Positions 27,928 through 58,445 of a DNA stretch of 63,755 nt are shown here, one piece after another (the stretch's first letter is position 1; the number at the start of each line of letters is the position of its first letter). The position numbers and the translations under genes were made by a program. This stretch comes from Gammaproteobacteria bacterium. Its GTDB lineage: Bacteria; Pseudomonadota; Gammaproteobacteria; Eutrophobiales; Eutrophobiaceae. The notes below the pieces were generated by a model. It searched no databases. It was not told the origin of the DNA and saw only the letters and a list, made by a program, of their open reading frames with translations. The DNA is taken from positions 1 through 63,755 of the forward strand of contig JACPSH010000043.1 in the NCBI GenBank assembly GCA_016193395.1, given 5' to 3'.

Positions 27928-27990
27928 TTGACTTTCCCCCTTAGGATGGAAGGCCCTGAATGAGTTGTTTATGAGCCTATGCAAAAAATA

Positions 27991-28315: not shown

Positions 28316-28499
28316 AAATGGGCTGCGACGGCGTACTCCGTTGTTGCGCATGACATTGATTCGCAACGGGCGCGGCCCGGGACCGGACATCCGGACGGCC
28401 ATGCCGGGAATGTGAGCGCCCGGTCGCCGACGTTAAACTATGCCCTGGCGACATGGGGTCGCCCGAGCACATTCCTTTATCGAACCGGGACATCCAGCC

Positions 28500-33845: not shown

Positions 33846-34946
33846 TCAACTCACGCGGTACTTTTCGAATGCTTCCGCCGTAAAGTCTGTGGACGCACCG
33901 GGCGCTTCCGGCGAGACGCACTTGCCGTCCTCGAGCCGTATCTGGTGCTTGAAGGGCCCCTTCTCCCAGATCGGGATGACTTCCAGGAGCCAATGGTTGG
34001 GGATCGCCTTGACCATGTGCTGGTGCACCTGCATCAGGTCGCCGGCATGCGGGCAGACGCGGATGTTGAAGGCATTCGCCATGGCCGCTACTTCCAGCCA
34101 GGGCGTGATGCCGCCGACGCGGCAGACATCCACCTGGATCAGATCGACGGCGCGCTGCTCGATGTAATCGCGGAAAGCATGGGTCGTGTAGACGTGTTCC
34201 CCCAGCGCGATGGGGATGGAGGTGTGCTCATTGAGTATCCGGTGCGAGCGGATGTCGTCCGGATGCAGGGGTTCCTCGAGCCACGACAGGTCGAATTCCT
34301 CGATCAGCCGCGCGGCTTCGCAGGCCTGCATCAGGTCCCATTTCTGGTTCGCGTCCACCATGAGCAGAATCCTGTCCCCGATCGACTTGCGCACTGCCGC
34401 CACGCGCCGCCGATCTTCCTTCGAATCCTTGAGGCCGACCTTCATCTTCAGCGCCGTGTAACCCTGATCGACGAGCTGCCGGGCCTCGTCCGTCAGTTGA
34501 TCGATGGAGTAATTGAGCCAACCGGCGTGCGTGTTGTAGATGGGGATATCAGCCTGCCGCGCCCCACCCAGCGCCTGCCACAACGGCAGGTCCGCAGCCT
34601 TGGCAATGATGTCCCAGAGCGCAATGTCCACCGCGGCCTGAGCCATCGTGGTGGCGCCCGCCCGCCCGATCCAGTGAGCCTTGCCGAAGTACAGTTCCTG
34701 CCAGATCTCGCGAACGTTGCGCGGATCCTTCCCGATGAGGTCGTCGATGTACAACGTGTCGATCGCCGTCTGGATGACCCTGCCGCCGGCGCCGACCGTC
34801 ACCGTGTAGCCCGTGCCGTCGATGCCCGCGTCCGTGCGGATGGTCAAGCCGGCGAACTCCAGCCGCGTCACGAACTGCATGCTGTCCGCGATCTCCGAGC
34901 CGATCGGGACATCGAGGACGAAACTTTCCGCGGAGGTGATTTTCAT
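33846..34946 (-). CDS. Enolase-superfamily acid-sugar dehydratase (mandelate-racemase subgroup)
   Basis: 366 residues from ATG 34946. Active-site residues are intact: ALKMKVGLKDS (K-x-K), MVDANQKWD (metal ligand), WLEEPLHPDD, LGEHVYT and VCPHAGDL (His general base). HWIGRAGATTMAQAA forms the capping-domain loop. It belongs to the group that includes D-galactonate, L-fuconate, D-arabinonate and L-lyxonate dehydratases, all making a 2-keto-3-deoxy acid. An earlier ATG at 35003 lies inside repeat DNA, so it is not preferred. It lies just upstream of the lactonase gene. Confidence 0.88.
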   Translation of the reverse strand: MKITSAESFVLDVPIGSEIADSMQFVTRLEFAGLTIRTDAGIDGTGYTVTVGAGGRVIQTAIDTLYIDDLIGKDPRNVREIWQELYFGKAHWIGRAGATTMAQAAVDIALWDIIAKAADLPLWQALGGARQADIPIYNTHAGWLNYSIDQLTDEARQLVDQGYTALKMKVGLKDSKEDRRRVAAVRKSIGDRILLMVDANQKWDLMQACEAARLIEEFDLSWLEEPLHPDDIRSHRILNEHTSIPIALGEHVYTTHAFRDYIEQRAVDLIQVDVCRVGGITPWLEVAAMANAFNIRVCPHAGDLMQVHQHMVKAIPNHWLLEVIPIWEKGPFKHQIRLEDGKCVSPEAPGASTDFTAEAFEKYRVS

Positions 34947-34948
34947 TA

Positions 34949-35055
34949 TTTCGGAGTTCGGGGCTCGGGGCTCGGTACTGGGGACTCGCATGCAAATCCG
35001 CAATGGCGCGGGAATCGGAATTCCGAGCCCTGAGTCCCGTGTCCCGAGTCCCGCG
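34949..35055. repeat. GAGTCCCG-type dispersed repeat, palindromic
   Basis: Non-coding DNA between the SnoaL gene and the dehydratase. GGGGCTCGGGGCTCGG and GGGGACTCG on one side mirror CGAGCCCTGAGTCCC and GTCCCGAGTCCCG on the other, forming an imperfect inverted repeat. Similar short GAGTCCCG runs occur at about 41575 and 43340, between other genes. Confidence 0.6.
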
Positions 35056-35540: not shown

Positions 35541-36371
35541 CTATGAATTTCCGGCATCCACGACGGCCGGCGCGCCCGTGACTTTCATTTCGATCTCGCC
35601 GAGTCCGGCGATACGCCCGGCGATTCTCCGGGATCCGTAGATCCGACGGGAGCGCGTACAGGTCCCGGGCAGAACGATCTGCCCGGCCTCCAGTGCAACG
35701 CCGAATTCCGAAATCTGATTTGCAAGCCAGACAATGCCCCTCGCCGGGTGACCCAGAATGGCGCTCGTGTTTCCCCGTTCGAGGACTGAGCCGTCCAGTT
35801 CCAGTTCGGTCGCGAGGTTGTCGAGCGCCAGTTCGGTGGGACGAACCCGCCTGGAATTCATCACGAGCCGGGCCGAAGAGCCGTTATCCGCCACCGTGTC
35901 CTGGAGCCGGACGCGCCAATCGACGATGCGCGAGTCGATGACTTCGAAGCACAGTGAAACATAATCCGTCGCGGCAATGACATCCTCGACTTTCACGCCC
36001 GGTCCCTGGAGCGGCCGTCCCAGCACGAATGCCGGCTCAATCTCGATCCGTGGGTCGATCAGTTCACCGAGATCGAGCGGCCTGTCCCGCTCGCGAACCA
36101 TCGCATCGAGCAGGTGCCCGTAATCCGGCTCCCTCACGCCAAATTGCTCCTGCATCGCCTGCGAGGTCAGACCGATCTTGTGGCCGACGATTTTCTGCCC
36201 GCCCCGGATTCGTCGTTCCACATTGCATTGCTGTATGCGGTAAGCCTCAGGCACGCTGAGGCCGGGAAATGTCTCCGTCAGCGGCGCGATCGGCCGACGC
36301 CTGGACTCGGCCTGGAACAAGGCATCGGCGCAGAACGCAATGACGTCCTTTGTCGACGGACTTTCGCTCAT
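35541..36371 (-). CDS. FAH-fold 2-keto-acid hydratase/hydrolase (MhpD/HpaH-like)
   Basis: 276 residues from ATG 36371. Characteristic motifs: IVGHKIGLTSQAMQEQFGV, EPDYGHLLDAM, RIEIEPAFVLGRPL (metal-binding Glu-x-Glu-x), SLCFEVIDSRI and GHPARGIVWLANQI. The family comprises 2-oxopent-4-enoate and 2-oxohept-3-enedioate hydratases and related enzymes. An N-terminal stretch of a longer frame (to 36518) overlaps the aldolase and is not preferred. It lies 14 bp after the aldolase stop. Confidence 0.85.
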   Translation of the reverse strand: MSESPSTKDVIAFCADALFQAESRRRPIAPLTETFPGLSVPEAYRIQQCNVERRIRGGQKIVGHKIGLTSQAMQEQFGVREPDYGHLLDAMVRERDRPLDLGELIDPRIEIEPAFVLGRPLQGPGVKVEDVIAATDYVSLCFEVIDSRIVDWRVRLQDTVADNGSSARLVMNSRRVRPTELALDNLATELELDGSVLERGNTSAILGHPARGIVWLANQISEFGVALEAGQIVLPGTCTRSRRIYGSRRIAGRIAGLGEIEMKVTGAPAVVDAGNS

Positions 36372-36385
36372 TCCGCGTTCTCCAT

Positions 36386-37240
36386 TCATCCACCACGGTC
36401 TTTCCTCTTCATGCCCTGCCTCGCCGCGGCAACGGTCGAGCGCGCCGCGCCCGACAACATGCGCCCATCGAAACTGACGCATTGAAGCGCGAAGCGGCGC
36501 GCAGCCCAATCGCCGCATGCCGCGGGATCGTCGACATAGATCCCGAGGTGGAGACTGCGCGGCATCGACTCGGCGAGCTTCCCCGCCGCCGAGTGGACCA
36601 GCGTGCTCCCGGGTTGCACACCCAGGGACAGCGCCAGGTCGTAGGGACCGACGAACAGGGCATCGACCCCGGGCACGGCTGCGATTTCACCGGCCCGCTC
36701 GATCGCCCCGCGACCTTCGATTTGCAGAACCAGGTAAACCGAATCATTAAGTGCTTGAAGCGGGCGTTGCAACGCGTCATACCTCGTCAGTGGTGAGAAC
36801 CCGCGGTTGCCGGCCGGCGGGAAACGTGATTGTTCGACGATGGCGCGGGCCCGTTCCGGTGTCTCGACCCTCGGCGCCATGATGCCATTAGCCCCGATGT
36901 CCAGGATTCGCCCGATCAGCCCGGGATCCTCTCCGCAGGGCCGCACGAGAATGGGAAGACCGGCGGACTGGCCGGCGGCGATCAGAGTTTCGAGGTGCGA
37001 GAAATCCAGGGCGGAGTGTTCCATGTCGATAATGACGAAATCGAATCCGGCGAGCGCCAATGCGCCGAGCGTCGCCGGCGAGGGCTGTTCGATGACGAAG
37101 GTTCCGAGCGCCCAGCCTGCGGCAACCTTGCTGCGCAGGACCTCCCCATAGCGCTGTGACTCGGCCAATCTGGCGCCGCGGTCGCCCCCGACGAACAGCG
37201 GATTGGTCCAGGATTCAAACGAGTCAGCGTCGTCGTTCAT
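36386..37240 (-). CDS. HpcH/HpaI-type 2-keto acid aldolase
   Basis: 284 residues. The class II pyruvate aldolase core is clear: LGTFVIEQPSPATLGALALA, DFVIIDMEHSALDF, ILVRPCGEDPG (catalytic Arg), GANGIMAPRVETPERA, QIEGRGAIERA (metal-binding Glu) and VDALFVGPYDLALSLG (metal-binding Asp). It cleaves 2-keto-3-deoxy or 4-hydroxy-2-keto acids to pyruvate and an aldehyde. It leads the minus-strand operon 37240-32960 behind the control region with two operators. Confidence 0.88.
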   Translation of the reverse strand: MNDDADSFESWTNPLFVGGDRGARLAESQRYGEVLRSKVAAGWALGTFVIEQPSPATLGALALAGFDFVIIDMEHSALDFSHLETLIAAGQSAGLPILVRPCGEDPGLIGRILDIGANGIMAPRVETPERARAIVEQSRFPPAGNRGFSPLTRYDALQRPLQALNDSVYLVLQIEGRGAIERAGEIAAVPGVDALFVGPYDLALSLGVQPGSTLVHSAAGKLAESMPRSLHLGIYVDDPAACGDWAARRFALQCVSFDGRMLSGAARSTVAAARQGMKRKDRGG

Positions 37241-37641: not shown

Positions 37642-38709
37642 GTGTCGCAGAACGGTGCGGGGCGGGTTCAGGGCATGACAGATGCGCGCGCTGCCGCAAA
37701 GCCGCGCCATTTCGTGACCCGCGCCGGCAGAAAGCTGTCATTTACCTCGCTCGGCTTCGGCTCGGCGCCGCTCGGCAATTACCTCCGTCCACTCACGGAG
37801 ACCGACTGCGACCGCACGCTCGCCACGGCATGGGATGACGGCGTGCGCTACTACGACACGGCGCCGCTCTACGGACTCGGCCTGTCCGAGATGCGAGTCG
37901 GCAGGCTGCTCAAACAGAAGAAGCGCTCCGAATTCGTCGTCTCAACCAAGGCTGGCCGGCTGCTCCAGCCTTGCGCGAAGGACGAAGTCAACGGCATGTT
38001 CTTCGTGCAGACGCCACAAGTTCGCTTCCATTACGACTATTCCTACGACGGCGTGATGCGTTCCTACGAGGACAGTCTCAAACGACTTGGTCTCGACTCG
38101 GTTGACATACTCCTGATTCATGACGTCGATGCCTTCAATCACGGCGGCCGCGCAGGATCCGAGGCGCGCATCCGTGAACTGCTCGATACGGGCGGCTGGA
38201 AGGCGCTCGCCGGATTGCGCGACAGCGGCGCCGTTTCGGCGATTGGCGCGGGTGTCAACGAATGGGAACCCTGCGCGCGACTGCTTGAACTGGCGGATCC
38301 GGATCTGTTCCTGCTGGCCGGCCGATACACCCTGCTCGAACAGGAACCGCTGGACACGCTCTTCCCGCATTGCGAAAGGCGCGGCGTCGGCATCGTCATC
38401 GGCGGCCCGTACAACTCCGGAATTCTGGCCGGGCTGTCGACCTACAACTATTCCGAAGCGCCGGCGCAGGTCGTGGCGAAGGTCCGAGAAATCGAAGCGG
38501 TATGCCGCCGACATTCGGTGCAGCTTCCACGCGCGGCCCTGCAGTTTGTGATCGCGCATCCCTTGGTGGTCAGCGTCATTCCGGGCGGGCAGACGCAGCG
38601 CGAGACGGAACAGAACATCGGCTACCTCGACGGAGACATTCCATCCGCGTTCTGGGCCGAGCTGAAACAGCAGAAGCTGCTGCACGCGCGCGCGCCGACT
38701 CCGCGCTGA
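37642..38709 (+). CDS. Aldo/keto reductase (D-threo-aldose/L-fucose dehydrogenase type)
   Basis: 355 residues, starting with GTG 37642 behind GGAGGAGAG. The AKR catalytic residues are seen: Asp in VRYYDTAPLYG (with Tyr), Lys in VSTKAGRLL and His in LIHDVDAF. FTSLGFGSAPLGNYLRPLTE is the N-terminal barrel, and VIPGGQTQRETEQNIGYLDG is the cofactor-binding C-terminal motif. D-threo-aldose 1-dehydrogenases of this group oxidise L-fucose, D-arabinose or L-xylose to the lactone with NAD. It follows copy 4 of the operator and heads a plus-strand operon. Confidence 0.85.
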   Translation: MSQNGAGRVQGMTDARAAAKPRHFVTRAGRKLSFTSLGFGSAPLGNYLRPLTETDCDRTLATAWDDGVRYYDTAPLYGLGLSEMRVGRLLKQKKRSEFVVSTKAGRLLQPCAKDEVNGMFFVQTPQVRFHYDYSYDGVMRSYEDSLKRLGLDSVDILLIHDVDAFNHGGRAGSEARIRELLDTGGWKALAGLRDSGAVSAIGAGVNEWEPCARLLELADPDLFLLAGRYTLLEQEPLDTLFPHCERRGVGIVIGGPYNSGILAGLSTYNYSEAPAQVVAKVREIEAVCRRHSVQLPRAALQFVIAHPLVVSVIPGGQTQRETEQNIGYLDGDIPSAFWAELKQQKLLHARAPTPR

Positions 38710-38766
38710 GGGCACAGTGGGTGTCCGCCAGCCTCGATGCACGCCACATTGCAGCGCCCTGACGCC

Positions 38767-39933
38767 ATGAGGCTCACCGCCGCGAATGTGCTCCCCGAAG
38801 ATCACCATTCCGGTACGCTGATCGGACGTGTCTGGGTGGACGGCTCCTGCCCGGGTCCCCGCACGTGCGTCCTGCACGAAGATGGACTGTTCGACCTCTC
38901 CTACATCGCACCCACCCTGAGCGATCTGTTCGACCTGCGCGATGCCGCGCCCTATGCGAAATACCATGACAGCCCCTGGTTGTGCTCGCTCGATGACGCT
39001 CTCGACAGGAGGCTGCTGCTCGCACCGTGCGATCTGCAGGCCATCAAGGCCTCCGGCGTCACTTTCGCCGACAGCGTCATCGAACGCATCATTGAAGAGC
39101 GGGCCGTGGGTGACCCCGCGGCGGCCGGCGAACTCCGCGAAGCGCTGGCCTCAGAACTGGGAGGAATGATCACGGAATTGAAGCCCGGTTCGCCCGAGGC
39201 GAACCGCGCCAAGCGCCTGTTGACCGAGAAAGGTCTCTGGTCGCAATACCTCGAAGTCGCGATCGGTCCGGACGCGGAGGTATTCACCAAGGCGCAGCCC
39301 CTGTCGGCTGTCGGTTGCGGAGCCGAAATCGGGTTGCATCCGGAATCCCGCTGGAACAACTCCGAACCCGAGATCGTCCTCGTGGTTTCCTCGCGCGGGG
39401 ACATCGTCGGCGCGACGCTCGGCAATGACTTGACCATGCGCGACATCGAGGGACGCAGCGCGCTGCTGTTGTCCAGGGCCAAGGACAGCAACGCGTCCTG
39501 CGCCATCGGGCCCTTTGTGCGCCTGTTCGACGACGAATTCGGCCTGGATGACGTGCGCGAGGCCCCGGTCCACCTCGAAATCGAGGGAGGGGATGGCTTT
39601 CGCGTCGCGGGCACCAACTTCATGCGGAAGATCAGCCGCGACCCGGCCGATCTCGTGCGCGCCATGATTGGACGTGAACACCAGTATCCGGATGGCCTGA
39701 TGCTGTTCCTCGGCACCATGTTCATACCGACTGAAGATCGCAACGGTCCGGGCTCCGGCTTCACGCACGAGCGAGGCGACATCGTCCGCATTTCCTCGCC
39801 CAGGCTCGGCACGTTGTACAACGTCGTGACCACATCGGACCTCGCCCCACCGTGGACATTCGGCGCTCGCGCGCTGGCCTCGTCGCTGGCTGCACGCGGC
39901 CTGCTCCGAGGTTCACTCAAGGAGAATCGATGA
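38767..39933 (+). CDS. FAH-fold 2-keto-3-deoxy-acid dehydratase (XylX/KdaD-like)
   Basis: 388 residues from ATG 38767 (an upstream ATG at 38737 is possible). It has the length and motifs of the fumarylacetoacetase-fold 2-keto-3-deoxy-pentonate dehydratases: YAKYHDSPWLC, GLWSQYLEVAIGPDAEVFTK, WNNSEPEIVLVV (metal-binding Glu), GATLGNDLTMRDIEGRSALL and GSGFTHERGDIVRIS. It would convert a 2-keto-3-deoxy pentonate to 2-oxoglutarate semialdehyde. The ALDH at 58446 could complete the route. The stop overlaps the next gene by 4 bp (ATGA). Confidence 0.85.
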   Translation: MRLTAANVLPEDHHSGTLIGRVWVDGSCPGPRTCVLHEDGLFDLSYIAPTLSDLFDLRDAAPYAKYHDSPWLCSLDDALDRRLLLAPCDLQAIKASGVTFADSVIERIIEERAVGDPAAAGELREALASELGGMITELKPGSPEANRAKRLLTEKGLWSQYLEVAIGPDAEVFTKAQPLSAVGCGAEIGLHPESRWNNSEPEIVLVVSSRGDIVGATLGNDLTMRDIEGRSALLLSRAKDSNASCAIGPFVRLFDDEFGLDDVREAPVHLEIEGGDGFRVAGTNFMRKISRDPADLVRAMIGREHQYPDGLMLFLGTMFIPTEDRNGPGSGFTHERGDIVRISSPRLGTLYNVVTTSDLAPPWTFGARALASSLAARGLLRGSLKENR

Positions 39934-41573
39934 TGAATACCCCGAACTGGATCCTGGCCTGCCTCCTGGCCGCCGCGAACGCGGGTTCCGCTTCCGCCGA
40001 ACCCACGATCGGGTCGACCGAATACCTGGGTCCTTTTACGGGCGAAGGCGCGGCGGTGCACCCGGATAACCTGTCACCCCATCGGATCGAATACTACGGC
40101 ACCGATCTCGGCTTCAGCTACGAACACGGCGGCATGCTGCAGTTCCTGTTCGGCGACACCTGGGCCACCGAGGCGTCCGCGCCGATCGAGGCTTCGACCG
40201 GCGCGCGGTTCGATGACGGCTTCGGCACGGTGGACCTGCGTCGCTGGTCCGACCCTCGACAGCTCGCACGCGACCGCATCCCGCCGATCAGGCTGGTACA
40301 GAATCCCGGCACGACCGAGATGTCCGCGATCGATCCCGGACATGTCATGGACCCCGGCAAGACACCGATGGGCGGCTTCAGCAACGGCACCCGCGAATTC
40401 GGCATTTTCAATATCGGCAAGCCGCAGGGTTGCCTGAGCGATGCGGATTGCGGCGATGGACTCACCTGTGACGCGACCCTGGGCTATATCGGCCCGCGTT
40501 ACTCAGAGGAGGAAAATTTCACGTTTCCATGCCGGGACGGCAATCCCGGTTGCAATGCCGACACGATGGCGGATGCCGCGGGCGCTCCTGTCCCGGGGAG
40601 CGGGTTCTGCGCGGACGAGACCAGCATGGTCGGGCGTGAACCTGTATCAAACCTCCTGACGACGATGGGATTCCGCGTGCGTATCGGCGTGAGGGACGCG
40701 TCCGATCCGAGGAAATACGGCGCTACGCGCGACTGGCTGACAAACAAGTTCATGAACGTCACCGTGCGCACCGTTGAGGGTTTTATCGCTCCGACGCGCG
40801 CGGGAAAACTGAAACAGGATTACCGTCCCGCGAAGGGCACGGGGGACAAGCGACGCGTGTTCCTGTGGGGCCGCCCCGGGTTTGTCGGCGTCGCCGCGAA
40901 CAGCCGCACGCTGGGGGTGTATTTCGCCTACGTCGATATCCCCACGGGACCTGGCTTTGCCTGGAACGTGAATTACTACGCCGGCACGGCGGATGGCATG
41001 CCGCAGTTCAGCCCCGATCAGAAGGACGCCGCGCCGCTCGATCTCGACTCGACGCGCGTAGGCGTCCAGCCCGAAGAAATGCACGACATCGTCAACCAGT
41101 TGAGCGTCGCCTGGATTGGACCCCTGAACAAATGGGTGATGTTCTACGGCGGCGGTCTGGGCTACAGCCCGCGGACCGGACTTCCGACCTGCGGTGTGAC
41201 TGAACTTTTCGTGGGCGCGGCATGCAGAAACGTAATCGTAGGCAACGGGGCCATACGCATGCGCACGGCCGACGATCCCTGGGGTCCCTGGACGCCGCCG
41301 CAGGATGTCATCGTCGGCGGCGATCCGGCCGACGGTCCGAAAAATCAGTATGGCCCCGGCGGCGCATTGCGTCACGCCGCGTGCGTTGATCCCGTTTGCG
41401 CCCCACACAGCGACACCGCGTTCTTCACGCAGGATGAATATGGGTTCTTCTACAGCGCCAATATCATCGAACAATGGATCCGTCCCGTGCGCGGCGGCGC
41501 GGACCTGATCTGGAACGCCTCGACGTGGGATCCATACCGCGTCATCCTCCTGAGAACGCGGATAAGAAAGTGA
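39930..41573 (+). CDS. Exported DUF4185-like propeller protein, paralogue 1
   Basis: 547 residues. A signal peptide (WILACLLAAANAGSASAE) precedes a protein with the hallmarks of the DUF4185/GH-like five-bladed propeller: YYGTDLGFSYEHGGMLQFLF, then GDTW; WGRPGFVGVAANS; PLNKWVMFYGGGLG; and ASTWDPYRVILLRTR at the end. A Cys-rich insert (CLSDADCGDGLTCD, NPGCNADT) follows the first blade and resembles short disulfide motifs. It shares about two thirds of its sequence by eye with the next two genes. It probably acts on extracellular or periplasmic glycans. Confidence 0.8.
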   Translation: MMNTPNWILACLLAAANAGSASAEPTIGSTEYLGPFTGEGAAVHPDNLSPHRIEYYGTDLGFSYEHGGMLQFLFGDTWATEASAPIEASTGARFDDGFGTVDLRRWSDPRQLARDRIPPIRLVQNPGTTEMSAIDPGHVMDPGKTPMGGFSNGTREFGIFNIGKPQGCLSDADCGDGLTCDATLGYIGPRYSEEENFTFPCRDGNPGCNADTMADAAGAPVPGSGFCADETSMVGREPVSNLLTTMGFRVRIGVRDASDPRKYGATRDWLTNKFMNVTVRTVEGFIAPTRAGKLKQDYRPAKGTGDKRRVFLWGRPGFVGVAANSRTLGVYFAYVDIPTGPGFAWNVNYYAGTADGMPQFSPDQKDAAPLDLDSTRVGVQPEEMHDIVNQLSVAWIGPLNKWVMFYGGGLGYSPRTGLPTCGVTELFVGAACRNVIVGNGAIRMRTADDPWGPWTPPQDVIVGGDPADGPKNQYGPGGALRHAACVDPVCAPHSDTAFFTQDEYGFFYSANIIEQWIRPVRGGADLIWNASTWDPYRVILLRTRIRK

Positions 41574-41574
41574 C

Positions 41575-41591
41575 GAGTCCCGAGTCCCGAG
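41575..41591. repeat. GAGTCCCG direct repeats
   Basis: Two tandem GAGTCCCG units follow the stop of paralogue 1, the same motif as at 34949-35055. Confidence 0.5.
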
Positions 41592-41594
41592 AGC

Positions 41595-41680
41595 GTAGGG
41601 TGGAATGAGCGCAGCGAATTCCGCCTTGGACAGGCATCGCGCCTCGGGCGGTGGATTTCGCTTCGCTCAATCCACCCTAC
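41595..41680. repeat. GTAGGGTGGA-type dispersed palindromic repeat overlapping the start of paralogue 2
   Basis: GTAGGGTGGAATGAGCGCAG at 41595 and its imperfect mirror, GGATTTCGCTTCGCTCAATC then CACCCTAC (41653-41680), form a hairpin with about 31-bp arms. GTAGGGTGGATTGAGCGAAG-like repeats are widespread in proteobacterial intergenic DNA. Here the ATG and first 25 codons of paralogue 2 lie in it. Confidence 0.7.
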
Positions 41681-43311
41681 TCTATTGGCTGGCGGCCGGC
41701 GCCGTCACCGCCTGCGGCGCGGCCTGCGCGGATCCCCTCCCCGCCGATACTACGGTTCTCGGTCCATTCACCGGCCATTACGCGCCGCTGCACCCGGACA
41801 ATCTCGCGCCGTTCCGGATTCACTACTACGGCACCGATCTGGGGTGGAGCTACGAGCACGATGGCAAAATCCAGTTCCTGTTCGGAGACACGAACGCGAC
41901 CGAGGGCGACGAGCGGATACAGGCTTCGACCCGCGGCGTTTTCGATGACGCCTTCGGCACCATCGAGCTTGCCGAATGGCCGGACCCGGCGAAGATCACG
42001 CCGCACAATATTCCGCTGATCAGGCTCGGCCAGAACCCGGGCACCACGGAGACCTCCGCCATCGATCCGGGTCATGCCATGGAAGGATTCAAAACCCCGA
42101 TCGGCGGGTTCGGCAACGGATCGCGCGAATTCGGGGTCTTCTATACGTCCAAGCCGCGGGCTTGCAACGCGGACGCTGACTGCGGCGGCGGGTTCGCCTG
42201 CGATAGCGGACTGGGATTCGCGGGTGAACCTTGGGATACCGACAGAGGGCTTACGTTCGGCTGCCTGGACGGCAGCCCCGGATGCATCGCCGATACGATG
42301 AAGGATGCCGCGGGCGCGCCGGTCCGGGACACCGGCTTCTGCGTGGATCGAACGAGCACCATCTGGGCGGACAGCGAGGCGGGCCGCATCGGCGCCATGG
42401 CGCTGAAACACCTGGTCGGCATCCGCGACACGTCCGATCCGCGCCGCTATACAAACGCGCGCGAGTGGATCACGAACAAGTTCGCCAACGTCGCCGTGCG
42501 CACCGTGAGTGACTTTGTCGCGCCCGGCGGTGCGCGCGGCGAAAGTCAGGATTATCGGCCGGCGAAGGGATCCGGCGGCAGGCAGCGCGTCTTTCTCTGG
42601 GGCAGACCGGGATTCATCGGCGTCGCCGCCACCGGCCGGCCGCTCGGCCTGTACTTCGCGTACGCCGACATGCCTTCAGGCCCGGAATTTTCCTGGAATC
42701 TTACTTACTACGCCGGACTGGACGCGGCCGGCCGGCCGCGCTTCAGCCGTAACGAGCGCGACGCCGCCGCCGTGGATCTCGATGCCACCAGGGAGGGAGT
42801 CCAGCATGAGGAAATCCACGACGTCGTGGACCAGATGAGCCTGAGCTGGGTGGAACCGCTGCACAAGTGGGTGATGTTCTACGGCGGCGGCATGGTCGAC
42901 CTGCCCCTGCCGACGCTGCCGAACTGCGGCGTGCTGGAGATTTTCACGCGTTCGGATTGCACGCGTGTCGTCCTCGGCAACGGCGCCATCCGGATGCGCA
43001 GCGCCGGCCAGCCGTGGGGACCCTGGACGCCGCCCGATGACGTGCTCGTTGGCGGCGACCCGGATCGCGTTCCGCTCGAGTATCAGTACGCCCCCGGCGG
43101 TGTGCTGCACCACCCCGCCTGCGCCGATCCAGCCTGTGTTACGCACACGCGATCCGCCGAGGTAACGGAACACGAATACGGCTTTCTCTACGGCGCGAAC
43201 ATCATCGAACAGTGGACGCGGCCCGCGGAAGGCGGCGCAGACCTGATCTGGAACGTGTCGACGTGGGACCCGTACCGTGTGGTCCTCGTCAGAACGCGGA
43301 TCGATGAATAG
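41605..43311 (+). CDS. Exported DUF4185-like propeller protein, paralogue 2
   Basis: 568 residues. The propeller part repeats the motifs of paralogue 1: IHYYGTDLGWSYEHDGKIQF, then LFGDTN; FLWGRPGFIGVAATG; PLHKWVMFYGGGMV; and STWDPYRVVLVRTRID. The Cys-rich insert is ACNADADCGGGFACD. The N-terminus (MSAANSALDRHRASGGGFRF) lies in a dispersed palindromic repeat (41595-41680), so the original signal peptide may be lost; hydrophobic STLLYWLAAGAVTACGAACA follows and could still serve as one. The start is therefore uncertain. Confidence 0.75.
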   Translation: MSAANSALDRHRASGGGFRFAQSTLLYWLAAGAVTACGAACADPLPADTTVLGPFTGHYAPLHPDNLAPFRIHYYGTDLGWSYEHDGKIQFLFGDTNATEGDERIQASTRGVFDDAFGTIELAEWPDPAKITPHNIPLIRLGQNPGTTETSAIDPGHAMEGFKTPIGGFGNGSREFGVFYTSKPRACNADADCGGGFACDSGLGFAGEPWDTDRGLTFGCLDGSPGCIADTMKDAAGAPVRDTGFCVDRTSTIWADSEAGRIGAMALKHLVGIRDTSDPRRYTNAREWITNKFANVAVRTVSDFVAPGGARGESQDYRPAKGSGGRQRVFLWGRPGFIGVAATGRPLGLYFAYADMPSGPEFSWNLTYYAGLDAAGRPRFSRNERDAAAVDLDATREGVQHEEIHDVVDQMSLSWVEPLHKWVMFYGGGMVDLPLPTLPNCGVLEIFTRSDCTRVVLGNGAIRMRSAGQPWGPWTPPDDVLVGGDPDRVPLEYQYAPGGVLHHPACADPACVTHTRSAEVTEHEYGFLYGANIIEQWTRPAEGGADLIWNVSTWDPYRVVLVRTRIDE

Positions 43312-43372
43312 AGTCGCGCGAGTTCCATGCTTGCCCCGAGTTCCGAGTCCCAATGAACAGGCCACAGCCATC

Positions 43373-45016
43373 ATGAACAACCGCAATGCGCCTCTGCTGT
43401 CACTTGCCATTCTCATCCTCGCCGCCTGCACTACCCGTCCGACCGCTGGCCCGTCTCCGGGCGAGACCATCGTGCTCGGGCCGTTTACGGGATTCGACGC
43501 GAAACTGCACCCGGACAACACGAAGCCCGCGCCAATCGCCTACTACGGCACGGACCTGGGGTGGAGCTACGCTCACGGCGGGAAGATCCATTTCATATTC
43601 GGCGATACGCACGGCAACGAGAAAGGAGAAGGAATCACCACTACTCACGACGACTCCTTCGGCACCATCGATCTCGCCGACTGGCCCGACCCGTCGCAGA
43701 TCGGTCCCGGCAACGTTCCACCGATCAAGATGGGACAGGAACCGGGCACGACGCAGGTCACGCCCATCGACACCGGCCGGCCGATGGAGGGACTGAAGAC
43801 CCCGGTCGGCGGCTTCAGCAACGGCACGCGCGAGTTCGGCATGTTCATCACGGGCAAGCCAGCGGCGTGCCGGACCGACGCGGAGTGCCCGTCGGGCTTC
43901 GCCTGCGATCCGGGCCTCGGATACTTCGGTTCGCGCCCGGACATCGAGCGCGGCCTCACGCTTCCCTGCGCCGAGAACTGGACCGGGTGCAACGCCGACA
44001 CGCAGGCGAACGCGGACGGCACGCCCGTTGCCGGCAGCGGGTTGTGCGTCGATCGCGGCAGCTCCATGTTCGCGGACTCGGAATTCGGCCGCGTCGTCAC
44101 GTCAGCCATGAAGCTGCTGATCGGCATTCGCAGCCAGGAACATCCCGGCAAGTACGAGGACATCCGCACCTGGCTGACCAACCGTTTCATCAACACCGCA
44201 TCGCGCCCGGTCGCGGACTTCGTGCCGGAACGGGGCGCCGGCCGCGCGAATCAGGACTATCGCAACCTCCCCGGCGCGGGCGGCAACCAGCGCGTGCTGC
44301 TGTGGGGCCGGCCCTGGTTCAACGGCGTAAATGCGAAGAACCAGACGGCCGCCATGTACTTCGCCTATGTCGACATGCCGGCGGGTCCGGGGTTCGAGTG
44401 GAAGGTCCGCTACTACACGGGCAGCGCCGCGGACGGCAGGCCCCGCTTCAGCGAGAACGAACTGGAGGCCGTGCCCGTCGACCTGGACTCGTCGCAGCCG
44501 GGCGTTCAGCCCCAGGAGATCCATGACTTGGTCCAGCACATGAGCATCGTCTGGATTGAGCAGCTCGGGAAATGGGTGATGTTCTACGGCGGCGGGATCA
44601 GCAAGGTTCCGAATGAGGGGTTCGGACTGCCGAACTGCGGCATCGCGGAGGTGTTCGCGCGCACGGAATGCAAGCACGTCGTCATCGGCAACGGCGCGCT
44701 GCGCATGCGCACCGCCGACGACCCGTGGGGCCCGTGGTCGCCGCCGCAAGACCTGATGGCGGGCGGCGATCCGGACCGGCTGCCTCCGGCCGATCAGTAC
44801 GCGCCGGGCGGCGTGCTCTACCACCCGGCCTGCGCGGGAGACGGCTGCCAGGCGCGATCCGTACAGTTTCCGGAGAACGACTACGGCTGGTTCTACGGCG
44901 CCAACATCATCGAGGAATGGATCAAACCCGCCGGCAGGGGCGTCGACGTGATCTGGAACGCATCGACCTGGGACCCCTATCGCGTGATCCTCCTCAAGAC
45001 GCGCATCCATCCCTGA
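43373..45016 (+). CDS. DUF4185-like propeller lipoprotein, paralogue 3
   Basis: 547 residues from ATG 43373. The N-terminus LLSLAILILAACTTRPTAG is a lipoprotein signal with lipobox LAAC, unlike the other two copies. The propeller motifs are YYGTDLGWSYAHGGKIHFIF, then GDTH; LWGRPWFNGVNAKNQ; QLGKWVMFYGGGIS; and STWDPYRVILLKTRI. The insert is ACRTDAECPSGFACD. Probably outer-membrane or periplasmic. The first ATG at 43277 would overlap the preceding gene. Confidence 0.8.
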   Translation: MNNRNAPLLSLAILILAACTTRPTAGPSPGETIVLGPFTGFDAKLHPDNTKPAPIAYYGTDLGWSYAHGGKIHFIFGDTHGNEKGEGITTTHDDSFGTIDLADWPDPSQIGPGNVPPIKMGQEPGTTQVTPIDTGRPMEGLKTPVGGFSNGTREFGMFITGKPAACRTDAECPSGFACDPGLGYFGSRPDIERGLTLPCAENWTGCNADTQANADGTPVAGSGLCVDRGSSMFADSEFGRVVTSAMKLLIGIRSQEHPGKYEDIRTWLTNRFINTASRPVADFVPERGAGRANQDYRNLPGAGGNQRVLLWGRPWFNGVNAKNQTAAMYFAYVDMPAGPGFEWKVRYYTGSAADGRPRFSENELEAVPVDLDSSQPGVQPQEIHDLVQHMSIVWIEQLGKWVMFYGGGISKVPNEGFGLPNCGIAEVFARTECKHVVIGNGALRMRTADDPWGPWSPPQDLMAGGDPDRLPPADQYAPGGVLYHPACAGDGCQARSVQFPENDYGWFYGANIIEEWIKPAGRGVDVIWNASTWDPYRVILLKTRIHP

Positions 45017-45036: not shown

Positions 45037-45885
45037 ATGACGCGGCTCAATGCCGAACAGCAGGACGCGTATCGCGAACGCGGCTATCATTGTCCCGTCC
45101 GCGCGTACTCCGGGCAGGAAGCCGCGCCACTGTGCCGGAAATTTCTGACCTACTGGGAACAGAACGACGCGAAGCTGAAGGCCCTGTTGCCGCGGGAACG
45201 CGGATCGTTCCTCATCGAGACGCATCTCTTCCTGCGCTGGGTCTACGACATCGTTGCGAATCCGCGCATCCTGGATGCCGTCGAATCCGTGCTGGGTCCG
45301 AACGTGATGGCCTGGAGTTCGCAGTGGTTTCCGAAGTTTCCGCACGACAGGACCTACGTGTCCTGGCATCAGGACGCCACCTACTGGGGACTTTCGCCGC
45401 CCAATGTCACGACGGCCTGGGTCGCGCTATCCGACAGTACGCGGGAAAATGCCTGCCTGCGCGTCATTCCCGGCACTCACCGCGGCGCTCTGCTGCCTCA
45501 ACGCGAGACCTACGCGGAGGCGAACATGCTGTCGCGTGGCCAGGAAATCGCGGTCGAGGTGGACGAATCGAAGGCGGTCGACTTCGTGCTGCGCCCAGGT
45601 CAATTCTCCCTCCACCACGTCGGCATCGTGCACGGCTCGGGACCGAACGATTCCGGTAGGCACCGCATCGGACTGGCGATTCGTTACATCTCCCCCGACG
45701 TCGTGCAACACGGCAGCGAACGCGATATGGTCCTGATGCTCCGGGGCAGGGACGACTACGGTCACTTCGATATCGTCCAGCCGCCGGAGCGCGACCTGCC
45801 CTATGGCGAAAGCGCGCTGCACGCAGAGTCGCTGGGCCGCAAGATGCGCAACCTCATGCCGGGGGAAAAGACCGGCAAGACCTGA
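45037..45885 (+). CDS. Phytanoyl-CoA dioxygenase-family Fe(II)/2-oxoglutarate oxygenase
   Basis: 282 residues from ATG 45037. The double-stranded beta-helix ligands are YVSWHQDATYWGLSP (His-x-Asp), HHVGIVHGSGPNDSG (distal His) and RHRIGLAIRYISP (Arg for 2-oxoglutarate). ACLRVIPGTHRGALLP is the usual family motif. It hydroxylates a small molecule, perhaps a sugar-linked compound. It sits in the plus-strand operon between propeller 3 and an SMP-30 protein. Confidence 0.9.
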   Translation: MTRLNAEQQDAYRERGYHCPVRAYSGQEAAPLCRKFLTYWEQNDAKLKALLPRERGSFLIETHLFLRWVYDIVANPRILDAVESVLGPNVMAWSSQWFPKFPHDRTYVSWHQDATYWGLSPPNVTTAWVALSDSTRENACLRVIPGTHRGALLPQRETYAEANMLSRGQEIAVEVDESKAVDFVLRPGQFSLHHVGIVHGSGPNDSGRHRIGLAIRYISPDVVQHGSERDMVLMLRGRDDYGHFDIVQPPERDLPYGESALHAESLGRKMRNLMPGEKTGKT

Positions 45886-45912: not shown

Positions 45913-46878
45913 ATGACGAAAGATCCCCGTGCCGCGCGGCTTGCCGCCGAGATCGGGATCCCGGGCGCGGGGGTGCGGACCGCCACCTTCGTGGCCTTCA
46001 CCGAGGGCCCGGTCTGGTCCGCGGACCGCAGCGTGTACTTCACCGATCTGTGGAACGACCGCATCCTGCGCTTCGTGCTCAAGGGCAGGCAGGCCTCCGA
46101 GGGCGGGCGCTTCGAAGTGTTCCGCGCGCCCGCGGGGCGTCCCGTCGGCATGGTCTTCGACGCTGAAGGGCGCCTCATCGTCTGCGAGGGCGAACTGGGC
46201 GATCACCGCCGCGTCACCCGCACTGAAAGGGACGGCGGCGTCACGGTGCTGGCGGATCGCTATCGGGGCAGACGGCTGAACAGCCCGAACGACGTGGACG
46301 TGGACACGGAAGGCCGCGTGTACTTCACGGACCCGCGCTATACCGACCGGACCGACATGGAGCTCGATCACGAGTCCGTCTACCGCATCGATCCGGACGG
46401 CACGCTCACTCGCATCATCGATGACGTCGTGCGACCCAACGGGATCGCCGTATCCGCCGATCAGAGAACGCTTTACGTCGTGGACAACGACAATTCCGGG
46501 GCCGGCGGCACGCGGAAGATCTATGCCTACAACCTTCTCATCGACGGCTCGACCGCCGGCCGGCGCGTGTTCCACGACTTCGGCGCCGGCCGCGGCGGCG
46601 ACGGCATGTGCCTGGACGAGCTTGGCAACGTCTACATCGCGGCCGGTCTGAACACGCCAAACCCGCCCGCCGAGGACGATTCCGTTCCGGCCGGCGTCCA
46701 TATCTTCTCGCCGGAGGGCACGCAGTTGGGCGTCATTTCCGTGCCCATGGACCTGATCACTAACGTGTGTTTCGGCGATACGGATCTGCGCACGCTCTAC
46801 ATCACCTGCGGCCACACGCTGTTCTACGTCCGTCTCAAGGTGCGCGGGTATGTGTTGTGGCCGCGGCCGGAGGACTGA
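45913..46878 (+). CDS. SMP-30/gluconolactonase-type lactonase, second copy
   Basis: 321 residues. The propeller metal ligands are visible as FTEGPVWSADRSVYFTDLWN (Glu), RLNSPNDVDVDTEGRVYFTD (Asn) and RPNGIAVSADQRTLYVVDND (Asn and Asp). FGAGRGGDGMCLDELGNVYI completes the ring. It likely hydrolyses an aldonolactone, or opens a second lactone, for the same pathway as the minus-strand lactonase at 32960. Confidence 0.88.
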   Translation: MTKDPRAARLAAEIGIPGAGVRTATFVAFTEGPVWSADRSVYFTDLWNDRILRFVLKGRQASEGGRFEVFRAPAGRPVGMVFDAEGRLIVCEGELGDHRRVTRTERDGGVTVLADRYRGRRLNSPNDVDVDTEGRVYFTDPRYTDRTDMELDHESVYRIDPDGTLTRIIDDVVRPNGIAVSADQRTLYVVDNDNSGAGGTRKIYAYNLLIDGSTAGRRVFHDFGAGRGGDGMCLDELGNVYIAAGLNTPNPPAEDDSVPAGVHIFSPEGTQLGVISVPMDLITNVCFGDTDLRTLYITCGHTLFYVRLKVRGYVLWPRPED

Positions 46879-46883
46879 GCTGC

Positions 46884-47648
46884 ATGAGACTCAAAGACAA
46901 GATCACCATCATCACCGGCGCAGGTTCAGGCATAGGGCGCGCAACCGCCCTGCTGTTCGCCCGCGAAGGCGCCTGCGTCCTCGCAGCGGATATTGACGGC
47001 GACAAGGCCACGCGGGTTACGGCCGAGATTAACAACGATGGCGGCCGCGCGGAAGCATTAGCCGCCGATATCGCCGAGGAGGCGGACGCGCGGCGGATCG
47101 CTTCCCGCGCGGCCGAACTCTGGGGGCGGGTCGACGTGCTGGTCAATAATGCCGCGTCGTTCCACCACAAGCGCGTGGAGGACGCCGATCGCGCGGACTG
47201 GGAAAAGGCGTGGAGCGTGAACGTGCTCGGGACCAGCCTGTGTTCCAGGTACGCCGCCGAAATCATGAAAAAACAGGGCGGTGGCGCCATCGTCAACATC
47301 GCGTCCATCAACGGGCTCATCGCCATGCCGGACTGGATGACCTACAACGCGAGCAAGGCCGCCGTGATCGAGATGTCCAAATCCATGGCGATGGATCTCG
47401 CGCCCTTCCACATCCGAGTGAATTGCGTCTGCCCGGGCGTCACCGACACGCCGGCGTTGCAGCGCGCCATCGAAGAACTCGGCGCCTCCAGAGAGGAAGT
47501 CATCAAGGCTTACATTGAGCCACAGTGTCTGATCAAACGCTTCGGCAAAGCGGAGGAAATCGCTCCAGCAATTCTGTTTCTGGCCTCGGACGAAGCTTCC
47601 TACATGACCGGCGCGACCGTCGTCGTGGACGGCGGTTACACGACTTGA
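46884..47648 (+). CDS. Short-chain dehydrogenase/reductase
   Basis: 254 residues from ATG 46884, 6 bp after the lactonase stop. Classical SDR: TGAGSGIGRA (cofactor), DIDGD (NAD-preferring Asp), NNAASF (NNAG position altered to NNAAS), Ser in VNIASINGL, YNASK (Tyr/Lys), CPGVTDTPALQ. SDRs in this kind of locus oxidise sugar acids or 2-keto-3-deoxy acids. Confidence 0.9.
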   Translation: MRLKDKITIITGAGSGIGRATALLFAREGACVLAADIDGDKATRVTAEINNDGGRAEALAADIAEEADARRIASRAAELWGRVDVLVNNAASFHHKRVEDADRADWEKAWSVNVLGTSLCSRYAAEIMKKQGGGAIVNIASINGLIAMPDWMTYNASKAAVIEMSKSMAMDLAPFHIRVNCVCPGVTDTPALQRAIEELGASREEVIKAYIEPQCLIKRFGKAEEIAPAILFLASDEASYMTGATVVVDGGYTT

Positions 47649-48076: not shown

Positions 48077-48334
48077 TCAACCTCCGCTCAACGCCCCGAA
48101 AATCAGCACCAGATCGTCCGGCCTCACGCGGGTTTTCAGCGTCGGCGCCTGCGCGCCGTCGACGAAGATGCGCAGGTGCGGCCGGATCCGATCCTGCTCA
48201 TCGACGATGCGGAAGCGGATCCCCGGAAAGCGCCGATCCAGATCGCGCAGCACTTCCTCCACGCTGGCGCCTCGCGCCTCGACCTGGGATGCGCGCGTGT
48301 AGTCGCGAAGCTGGGTGGGGATGACCACCTGCAT
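48077..48334 (-). CDS. MoaD/ThiS-family ubiquitin-like protein
   Basis: 85 residues with the beta-grasp pattern and a C-terminal di-glycine (LVLIFGALSGG), as in MoaD and ThiS sulfur carriers. It overlaps the stop of the adjacent propeller gene by one base (TGATG). No MoaE, ThiG, ThiF or other sulfur-transfer enzyme is in the window, so it may be a protein modifier or pair with the propeller. Confidence 0.8.
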   Translation of the reverse strand: MQVVIPTQLRDYTRASQVEARGASVEEVLRDLDRRFPGIRFRIVDEQDRIRPHLRIFVDGAQAPTLKTRVRPDDLVLIFGALSGG

Positions 48335-49518
48335 CAGGCGAACTCCGCTGCCTCGACCGAATACACTTCAGGAAGGTAACGGGCCAGACAGACCCACCGT
48401 TCTCCTTCCTTGACGCTTCCCCAGACCTCGCCGCCGGTGGTGCCGAAATACACGCCGACGGATTCCGCCCGGTCCGCGCACATGGCTTGGCGCTTGACCG
48501 TGAACCAGCCTTGCGCGCGCGGCAGGCCGCGGTCCAGCCGCCGCCAGCTCCGGCCGCCGTTGCGTGAAACATAGGCCGCCGGTTTCCCGTCAGGACTGAC
48601 GCGCGGCCACACGGTCGAGCCGTCCATGGGGAATACCCATACCGTGTCCGGATCCCTCGGATGCAGGACCATGGGGAAACCGATGTCGCCGACCTTCTTC
48701 GGCATGTTGTCCCCGATGCGCTCCCAGCGGGCTGCGGCGCGGTCCATGCGGTAGATGCCGCAATGATTCTGCTGGTAGAGCCGGTCCGGGGCGAGCGGGT
48801 GCAGGCGCATGCAGTGCACGTCGTGGCCGAATTCCGGGAACGGATCGGGCAGAAAATCCGCGCGGCAGCCAGCGTTCAGCGGCTTCCAGTCGGCGCCGCC
48901 ATCGGTGCTCTCGAAGGTTCCGCCGCTCGACATGCCGATATACAGATGCTTCGGATCGCGCGGGTCGATGCAGATGGAATGCAGGGTCGCGCCGTCCGGA
49001 GGGGCCGCCTGCCCGTCGCCGCACCAGGCTGGGCGCTTCGGGTGTGTATTGAAACCGGCGACGCCGTCCCAGGTCGCGCCGCCGTCGTTCGAACGGAACA
49101 ATCCCTGCGGCGAGGTGCCGGCATACCAGACATGCGGCTCGCTGGCGTGTCCGGGCGCGAGCCAGAAGACGTGATCCACCGCGCGCGCCATCTCGCCATC
49201 GGGCGCCTTGGCGAATGCGGGCGGGCGGCTCGCCTCCTTCCAGGTCCTGCCGCGATCGGACGAGCGAAAGACCGTCGGTCCGAGATGGCCGGTCCTGGCC
49301 GCGCAGATCAGCGTACGCCGATCGCGCGGATCGAGAACGACATGGTGCGCGGTATGACCGAGAAACTCCGGTCCCGTCAGTCGCCAGCTCCTGCGGCCCG
49401 GGCCGGCGCGCAGGAAAAATACGCCCTTGCGCGTGCCGATCAGCAATGTCAAAGACCTCGCCGCGGTCCGGCTGCGGCGTTTAGCCGCGCCCCGTCTCTT
49501 GCGGGTCGTTTTCGCCAT
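48334..49518 (-). CDS. BNR/sialidase-like beta-propeller protein
   Basis: 394 residues. Asp-box repeats are clear: FRSSDRGRTWKEA, FRSNDGGATWDGV, FESTDGGADWKPL and YVSRNGGRSWRRL. The N-terminus is basic (KTTRKRRGAAKRRSRTAARS) rather than a signal peptide, so it is probably cytosolic. The neighbouring MoaD/ThiS gene is translationally coupled. The function of such propeller-MoaD pairs is not established. Confidence 0.82.
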   Translation of the reverse strand: MAKTTRKRRGAAKRRSRTAARSLTLLIGTRKGVFFLRAGPGRRSWRLTGPEFLGHTAHHVVLDPRDRRTLICAARTGHLGPTVFRSSDRGRTWKEASRPPAFAKAPDGEMARAVDHVFWLAPGHASEPHVWYAGTSPQGLFRSNDGGATWDGVAGFNTHPKRPAWCGDGQAAPPDGATLHSICIDPRDPKHLYIGMSSGGTFESTDGGADWKPLNAGCRADFLPDPFPEFGHDVHCMRLHPLAPDRLYQQNHCGIYRMDRAAARWERIGDNMPKKVGDIGFPMVLHPRDPDTVWVFPMDGSTVWPRVSPDGKPAAYVSRNGGRSWRRLDRGLPRAQGWFTVKRQAMCADRAESVGVYFGTTGGEVWGSVKEGERWVCLARYLPEVYSVEAAEFA

Positions 49519-49569: not shown

Positions 49570-50928
49570 TTACAGCACAACGTACGCGATCACGAGCGTC
49601 GCCATCACGGCCTGGAACAGGAAAGTCAATTGCAGAAGCGCGTGCGCCGGTGCGAATGGGCGGAGGTGTGGATCCATCCGGTAACGTTGCAGCCAGAGGG
49701 TCGCGCCGCTCTGCACGGGCAGCAGCAGCGCGCCCATCAGCGCGCCGACCATGAGCAACACCACCGGGTTCGGAATCGCCAGATAGAAGACCAGACTCGC
49801 GACCGGCAGGACTGCGCCGCAGCCGCGCGTCCAGTAGATGCGCGTCGCGAGCCGCTGCCGATCAATAAATCCGAATTCGACGAGGTAGTCCGGAACCATG
49901 CGGCTGATCCCGCCGAAGCCGGCCACGACGCTCGAGAACAGGATGCAGAACGCCGCGCCGCCGAACAGCCACAGCGACCAGCCGCCGAGCGTCCGGGTAA
50001 ACATCGCGGAAAGCGCCGACACGGTCTCCAGTCCCTGCGGGCGCAATCCCGCGGCATGCAGCACGCCGGCGCCGAGCAGATAGAACGGCAACGTGGCGCA
50101 GGTGAGAATCGCCAGCGTGACCCAGACATCGAGTTGCAGCACGCCGATCCAGCCGCGGGCGCGGGACAGCCATGCCGGGTCCTCCCGATCGCCGCCGACG
50201 AAACCGGCATAACCTTTCTCGATGCACCAGTAGCCATACGTGGAGATCTCGGCCGAGTTCACTCCGGTGGCGCCGTATACGGCCAGCGCCAGTACCAGGT
50301 GTTCCGCGGGAAATTCAAAACTGAAACCGGCAGCGACATCGCTCCACGAAAGGCCGTACTCCGTGAATTGCATGGCGATCGCGGAAGCGACGGTCGCCAG
50401 CGTGAACCCCGCGACCAGCGCCAGCATGGTCCACTCGAGACGCAGGTAAGAACCGCTGTACAGGATCGCGGACGCGGCGATCGCGGCCAGCGCGCTCATC
50501 CAGCGGGAATCGATGCCCGGCAGGAACAATGACATCGCCTGACCGGTGCCGCCCAGGATGCCCCCCATGCCGATGATCCCGGGGAGGAAACTCAGGAGCC
50601 CGAACCAGAGGGTCCAGGAAACCGGCCCGCGCGGACCGGGCAGCCGGCCCGGGACCCGGTTGAGCGCCCGCAGGTAGGTGTCTCCGGAAGCCACGATGTA
50701 CCGCGCCAATTCGGCCTGCACGATGGACTTGCTCCAGCAGCACACCAGCATCCACCATAACAGGACGAACCCGGCCGCGGCGCCGAGGCTGGAGGTGAGT
50801 ATCAACTCGCCGGAACCGACGATGCTGCCGGAGATCACGATGCTCGGCCCCAGAAGCCGAAGTCGGGAATGCCAAGTGGCGGGCGGCGGCCATATCGCGG
50901 CCTCACGAATTGTGTAGGGATCGCTCAC
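49570..50928 (-). CDS. Nramp-superfamily transporter with altered metal motifs
   Basis: 452 residues with about 11 membrane spans. The fold follows Nramp (LLGPSIVISGSIVGSGELIL, AAGFVLLWWMLVCCWSKSIV, GATGVNSAEISTYGYWCIEK). The TM1 metal motif DPGN appears as GSIVGSGE, and TM6 lacks MPH. It is thus unlikely to carry Mn/Fe in the usual way; it resembles the Nramp-related group without metal ligands. It is divergent from GH172 (55 bp), without a CTRACATGTYAG site. Confidence 0.75.
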   Translation of the reverse strand: MSDPYTIREAAIWPPPATWHSRLRLLGPSIVISGSIVGSGELILTSSLGAAAGFVLLWWMLVCCWSKSIVQAELARYIVASGDTYLRALNRVPGRLPGPRGPVSWTLWFGLLSFLPGIIGMGGILGGTGQAMSLFLPGIDSRWMSALAAIAASAILYSGSYLRLEWTMLALVAGFTLATVASAIAMQFTEYGLSWSDVAAGFSFEFPAEHLVLALAVYGATGVNSAEISTYGYWCIEKGYAGFVGGDREDPAWLSRARGWIGVLQLDVWVTLAILTCATLPFYLLGAGVLHAAGLRPQGLETVSALSAMFTRTLGGWSLWLFGGAAFCILFSSVVAGFGGISRMVPDYLVEFGFIDRQRLATRIYWTRGCGAVLPVASLVFYLAIPNPVVLLMVGALMGALLLPVQSGATLWLQRYRMDPHLRPFAPAHALLQLTFLFQAVMATLVIAYVVL

Positions 50929-58386: not shown

Positions 58387-58398
58387 CTAACATGTCAG
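58387..58398. promoter_or_regulatory. Operator CTAACATGTCAG (copy 6)
   Basis: Identical to copy 3. It contains the ATG at 58392, so that codon is unlikely to be the true start of the aldehyde dehydrogenase. Confidence 0.7.
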
Positions 58399-58445
58399 TT
58401 GCCATGACGGAAATTGTGGCCCCTTCCATCCCGCGAGACGCACCG

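Follow-up and report, generated by a model that had tools for sequence, protein, structure and literature searches.

The locus described here lies on a 63,755-nt stretch (contig JACPSH010000043.1, referred to as the window) of a 2.7-Mb, 97%-complete genome (GCA_016193395.1), and contains three intact genes, P1, P2, and P3, in tandem on the same strand (Table 1). The encoded proteins share about 52-59% pairwise identity (P1/P2 58%, P1/P3 52%, P2/P3 57%) and all contain the motifs YYGTDLG, GDT, KWVMFYGGG, and WDPYR, which confirms the original prediction of three tandem paralogues with shared motifs, and no further copies were found in the 97%-complete genome. For P3, a longer open reading frame from 43277 would begin within P2. 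The P1 start codon overlaps the stop codon of the upstream FAH1 gene (ATGA at 39930-39933), and the AKR, FAH1, P1, P2, P3, PhyH, SMP-30, and SDR genes follow one another on one strand with short gaps. Based on the common strand, the short gaps, and the FAH1/P1 overlap, they probably form a single operon, and the predicted association with sugar catabolism genes is borne out. Further genes form an island around the operon. A protein with BNR/Asp-box repeats, like the F510_1955 glycosylhydrolases at a score below the cut-off, is encoded between the operon and the GH172 gene, and about 20 kb before the island is a phage-type integrase gene that could mark a mobile element.

Table 1. Positions of genes and repeats in the window
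Feature	Position	Strand	Evidence and remarks
Phage-type integrase	5159-6202		
MFS/ATG22-like transporter	24158-25609	-	kept in L018, L037
TonB-dependent receptor	25726-27984	-	PF07715; kept in L015, L037, L034
GntR/FCD regulator	28440-29204	+	kept in L015, L018
MLE1, enolase-superfamily dehydratase	29269-30369	+	family match
MLE2, enolase-superfamily dehydratase	30366-31526	+	family match
SMP-30-like lactonase homologue	32960-33835	-	homology to window SMP-30 gene; no NCBIfam match; kept in L015, L016, L018
MLE3, enolase-superfamily sugar-acid dehydratase	33846-35003	-	family match
FAH2, MhpD-like hydratase/hydrolase	35541-36518	-	family match
HpaI/HpcH-family 2-keto-3-deoxy acid aldolase	36386-37240	-	PF03328 4.4e-27
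AKR, aldo/keto reductase, candidate D-arabinose (L-fucose) 1-dehydrogenase	37642-38709	+	PF00248 1.1e-42; alternative ATG 37678
FAH1, candidate D-2-keto-3-deoxypentonate dehydratase	38737-39933	+	9kkt 1.9e-116; Sulfolobus KdaD 5.6e-18
P1, GH183/DUF4185 copy 1	39930-41573	+	547 aa; PF13810 49.2 bits; type I signal peptide
REP-like palindromic repeat, start codon and n-region of P2 inside	41591-41689	.	partial copies elsewhere in genome; hairpin
P2, GH183/DUF4185 copy 2	41605-43311	+	568 aa; PF13810 44.8 bits; repeat-derived N-terminus
P3, GH183/DUF4185 copy 3	43373-45016	+	547 aa; PF13810 46.0 bits; lipoprotein signal (LAAC)
PhyH-family dioxygenase	45037-45885	+	PF05721 2.9e-30
SMP-30/gluconolactonase-type lactonase	45913-46878	+	PF08450 1.5e-48
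SDR dehydrogenase	46884-47648	+	PF13561 1.8e-66
BNR/Asp-box repeat protein	48334-49518	-	
Nramp-family transporter	49570-50928	-	
GH172 (DUF2961), candidate exo-alpha-D-arabinofuranosidase	50984-52312	+	PF11175 1.2e-74, over cut-off; signal peptide
GarD/UxaA-type dehydratase, candidate D-arabinonate dehydratase	53327-56071	-	914 aa; PF20629 5.7e-85, PF04295 7.2e-42
ALDH, aldehyde dehydrogenase, candidate alpha-ketoglutarate-semialdehyde dehydrogenase	58392-59894	+	PF00171 6.7e-148; below NCBIfam equivalog cut-off

Family, active site, and fold of P1-P3

P1, P2, and P3 each score above the curated Pfam cut-off of 39.5 bits for PF13810 (DUF4185), in agreement with their earlier description as exported propeller-type DUF4185 proteins. 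The original prediction regarded DUF4185 as a family of unknown activity, a label that is out of date since DUF4185 is CAZy family GH183, the retaining endo-D-arabinanases described in 2023 (PMC10115798, PMC10509167), and the choice of an arabinofuranoside as the likely substrate appears, from the family assignment, to have been right. The catalytic pair reported for EndoMA1 is D33/D51, and that for Rv3707c is D39/D56 (PMC10115798, PMC10509167). In P1 the candidate nucleophile is D59 (YYGT-D59-LG) and the candidate acid/base is D76 (G-D76-T), both within the motifs noted above, and the pair is invariant in 11 homologues, down to 45% identity. We took a DUF4185 domain from the sequence record of Gordonia phage GMA6, whose DUF4185 enzyme has been assayed previously (PMC10115798). 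This domain aligns through TDLG-FGDT with YYGTD59LG-FGD76T of P1 in an eight-sequence alignment, and with AraH2 (8an0) exactly at D39 and D56 (residues counted by hand). Comparison of the family profile with the phage domain by hhalign gave a 29-column match at 5% probability, so the Asp assignment also rests on the eight-sequence alignment, the AraH2 alignment, and the residue spacing. No direct sequence match to the solved GH183 structures was obtained from P1 or A1.

At the third carboxylate of the active site, a position that we infer from spacing to correspond to E243 of EndoMA1, the residue is Gln in 9 of the 11 homologues (Q390 in P1) and His in the other two (P3 and its orthologue). 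The motif that carries this carboxylate, GE[LMV][ST], is seen in the phage domain, AraH2, 9mz5, and Indioceanicola, and the residue is a conserved but not a family-defining trait of GH183 that is absent from the P1-P3 branch. The E243Q variant of EndoMA1 is nearly inactive. The loss of this residue, together with the lipoprotein form of several orthologues, would fit a non-catalytic role of P1-P3 as Cys-stabilized propellers that bind glycans and trap D-arabinan on the surface of the cell, but we consider this improbable given the invariant Asp pair and given that in DgGH4185b the equivalent conserved Glu can be substituted without loss of activity (PMC10115798).

The AlphaFold2 model of P1 is of low confidence (mean pLDDT 52.1, pTM 0.65), and the best match to this low-confidence model in VIA-align is EndoMA1 (8hhv; Z 24.7, 289 residues, rmsd 3.0 Å), with other five-bladed propellers at Z 16.4 and below. 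Foldseek gave no match to the same model at E ≤ 0.001, and the EndoMA1 match is that of VIA-align, used as the second aligner. The predicted Cys-rich insert is present, although the spacing before F/L is x3 and not x4 and the D may be E, so that the motif reads C-x4-[DE]-C-x3-[FL]-x-C-D, with E in P3. Nine Cys are invariant across the 11 homologues and a tenth is absent only from the most distant one, and the insert is weakly similar (below cut-off) to the myxobacterial Cys-rich repeat TIGR04201. P1-P3 resemble the known GH183 enzymes (EndoMA1, AraH2/Rv3707c, DgGH4185a/b, MyxoGH4185, and PhageGH4185) in their DUF4185 scores, in an Asp pair 17-18 residues apart, and in a modeled five-bladed propeller nearest EndoMA1, but differ in the conserved-Cys insert, in the Gln or His at the third carboxylate, in the lack, relative to EndoMA1, of a C-terminal CBM, and in an identity of about 45% or less outside their own small group. 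As every relative has Gln or His at the third position along with the Cys insert, we propose that P1-P3 represent a divergent branch of DUF4185 for which endo-D-arabinanase activity is predicted.

Age of the copies and origin of their N-termini

Relatives were sought by pattern in an 84,980-species collection, the genome count being a lower bound, and were found in at least four genomes: the gammaproteobacterium RIFCSPLOWO2_02_FULL_61_13 (three tandem copies, L015a, L015b, and L015c; this genome, L015, is the second of the window's family), nzgw591 (two), a Lake Baikal Lysobacterales MAG (two), and Marinicaulis flavus (one). The proteins are rare, occurring in 2 of 58 relatives with the window's own genome included, and solely in the latter among samples of 369 genomes from the class and 398 from the phylum. 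The plasmid search gave a single kin match (27%, Indioceanicola profundi), and the viral contigs and phage records contained no relatives of P1-P3. In the maximum-likelihood tree, P1 groups with L015a, L016a, and L017a (96/96), P2 with L015b (99/99), and P3 with L015c (100/100), so that the partners of copy 1 extend to two more gammaproteobacterial MAGs. Because each copy groups with the same-position copy of another genome, the copies are old and not recent; the tree indicates that the triplication is older than the divergence between the window genome and 61_13, and that copy 1 split from the others before the sampled gammaproteobacterial lineages diverged.

The original prediction was of a recent triplication, with phylogeny set beforehand as the refuting test, and the maximum-likelihood tree rules this out by placing the copies in separate, supported clades shared across genomes. 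That the genes are in tandem on one strand, of similar size, and with unlike N-termini would suit a recent triplication whose copies took on different anchors, but the divergence between the copies, their same-position grouping across genomes, and the variation of anchors between orthologues make this highly improbable. Specifically, P1 begins with what looks like a type I Sec signal, the lipobox LAAC is present in P3, and P2 has a weak lipobox-like VTAC, so the three N-termini do differ as predicted. However, orthologues of P1 in L015 (LAGC) and L016 (LAAC) have a lipobox that P1 lacks, and the orthologue of P3 has none. Anchor class therefore appears labile between orthologues, which rules it out as a paralogue-specific trait.

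The predicted start codon of P2 (41605) sits in the left arm of a REP-like palindrome whose RNA hairpin has a folding energy of -58.9 kcal/mol (z -6.8). The predicted starts of L015b and L015c also lie inside palindromes (L015 11620-11745 and 13325-13445) of a different repeat family, GTGAAAAG...CTTTTCAC, where the charged n-region of an apparent signal peptide is encoded in the A-rich arm and its hydrophobic core in the T-rich arm. Sites with the A-rich word are scattered over the window genome and L015, several of them as inverted pairs, and its count is not above that of the same word reversed, so abundance alone proves nothing. We tentatively suggest, as a possibility we would not yet favor, that palindromic intergenic repeats have repeatedly supplied genes with a translation start and a signal peptide, and that repeat insertion may rewire the export of tandem paralogues. 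On this view, each of the three GH183 copies, which come from two genomes and involve two unrelated families of repeats, would have its sole usable start codon in or at the left arm of the repeat, with the right arm of the T-rich family encoding the hydrophobic core. Similar short sequences follow P1 (41574-41590, CGAGTCCCGAGTCCCGAG) and P2 (43335-43352, CCGAGTTCCGAGTCCC) and are possibly duplication remnants or small repeats.

Sugar-acid genes, GH172, and synteny

The order TonB, MLE1, MLE2, MLE3, SnoaL, FAH2, HpaI, AKR, and FAH1 is kept in the alphaproteobacterium Marinicaulis flavus, with GH183, GntR, SMP-30, and MFS genes within the next 20 kb. In that genome the gene immediately after AKR-FAH1 encodes an ALDH with 2,5-dioxovalerate dehydrogenase as its best (sub-cut-off) NCBIfam match; the AKR gene directly precedes GH183 in L015 and L016, and a Variovorax plasmid carries a GarD-FAH-ALDH trio. 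In FAH1, E181 is aligned with the Glu of KdaD, and no paper was found on structure 9kkt. Route II of the non-phosphorylative D-arabinose pathway is known from Herbaspirillum huttiense and Paraburkholderia mimosarum (PMC6336799), and members of all four of its families (AKR, GarD-type dehydratase, FAH-type D-KDP dehydratase, and ALDH) are present in the window, their putative substrates being assigned by homology. Unlike Route II, the window genes are joined to glycoside hydrolases, SMP-30, MLE, and HpaI genes, and their GarD homologue is a protein of 914 aa. The fucose/D-arabinose isomerase family PF07881, the one isomerase family searched, was not found in the five genomes, which is consistent with an oxidative route.

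The 914-aa protein extends some 370 residues past its two Pfam domains and has full-length homologues in L017, Rubrobacter, and Pantoea soli. Close to its gene in the window is one for an Nramp-family transporter, and on a Rubrobacter indicoceani plasmid (L032 5575-9715) an Nramp gene directly adjoins a 53%-identical homologue; this Nramp clade perhaps serves sugar-acid metabolism.

The GH172 gene is like those of known members (DgGH172c, ExoMA1, alphaFFase1, and BACUNI_00161) in exceeding the DUF2961 cut-off, and its nearest solved structures are 4kq7, DgGH172c (8ah3), alphaFFase1 (7v1v), and ExoMA1 (8ic8). ExoMA1 is more distant from it than DgGH172c and alphaFFase1 are, and enzymes of the D-arabinose and D-fructose types are both among its nearest relatives. 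In L015 a GH172 gene lies one gene past the third GH183 copy, and three of the five genomes, which include incomplete ones, gave no GH172 match. The GH116 exo-beta-D-arabinofuranosidase (PF04685) was not found in any of these five, partly incomplete genomes, so the known enzyme set would not fully digest beta-capped mycobacterial arabinan. The island resembles the Microbacterium arabinogalactanolyticum and Dysgonomonas gadei loci (PMC10509167, PMC10115798), where several GH183 genes lie together with genes for GH172, transport, and sugar use. It differs in its Pseudomonadota host, in that no GH116 was found, and in that putative oxidative D-arabinose genes replace the isomerase and kinase used by the known D-arabinan loci. 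None of the papers in the library searched dealt with endo-D-arabinanase in Gammaproteobacteria.

Proposed use of D-arabinan

Mycobacteria and related bacteria, which have it in their walls, are the best-known source of D-arabinan, and to our knowledge no genes for its endo-acting degraders had been identified before 2023. We consider it likely that the island is a Pseudomonadota D-arabinan utilization island, combining GH183 endo-hydrolases with non-phosphorylative D-arabinose oxidation. From the family assignments we infer the substrate, the direction and order of the steps, and their localization as follows. The exported P1-P3, as retaining endo-hydrolases, would act outside the cytoplasm and cut a polymer of D-arabinofuranose into oligomers, which a periplasmic GH172 would trim to D-arabinose, and the TonB receptor and MFS transporters would aid uptake. 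The aldo/keto reductase would then convert D-arabinose to arabinonolactone without phosphorylation, the SMP-30 lactonase would give arabinonate, and the GarD-type and/or an enolase-superfamily dehydratase would yield D-2-keto-3-deoxypentonate. From here the pathway could branch, either via the FAH-family dehydratase to alpha-ketoglutarate semialdehyde and via the aldehyde dehydrogenase to alpha-ketoglutarate, or via the HpaI aldolase to pyruvate and glycolaldehyde.

In favor of the D-arabinan island are the DUF4185 scores, the Asp pair, the EndoMA1-like model, GH172, the Route II genes, the synteny with Marinicaulis flavus, and the isomerase that was not found. Against it count the Gln/His at the third carboxylate, the GH116 and (in three of five genomes) GH172 that were not found, the low-confidence model, the location of the GarD-type and ALDH genes outside the GH183 operon, and the AKR, SDR, MLE, and ALDH genes, which reach no equivalog cut-off and belong to families that act on many sugars. 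Some of these points would also suit a GH183 fold that cuts another glycan (a fucofuranosyl, galactofuranosyl, or L-arabinofuranosyl polymer) in an island that oxidizes L-fucose or a related sugar: the third carboxylate is altered across the whole branch, no GH116 was found, there are several enolase-superfamily dehydratases, GH172 includes the difructose-dianhydride/D-fructofuranosidase found among the nearest solved relatives, and AKR D-arabinose dehydrogenases use L-fucose too (PMC6336799). Nevertheless, every DUF4185 enzyme characterized in the two studies cited acts on D-arabinan (PMC10115798, PMC10509167), and FAH1 is like the D-2-keto-3-deoxypentonate dehydratases, a pentose step, so that we regard another glycan as rather unlikely.

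The setting of the three genes is more telling than the triplication itself. With GH183 relatives clustered with genes fit to burn the released D-arabinose, the environmental bacterium that hosts them probably eats an unusual D-arabinose polymer. If the D-arabinan proposal is true, the occurrence of the island in free-living Gammaproteobacteria and an alphaproteobacterium would widen the range of organisms that recycle D-arabinan and would couple D-arabinan degradation to oxidative, and not phosphorylative, D-arabinose use. In addition, specificities could be compared with those of a GH183 branch that is divergent and altered in its active site, and the long run of uncharacterized sugar-acid genes would gain a substrate that can be tested.
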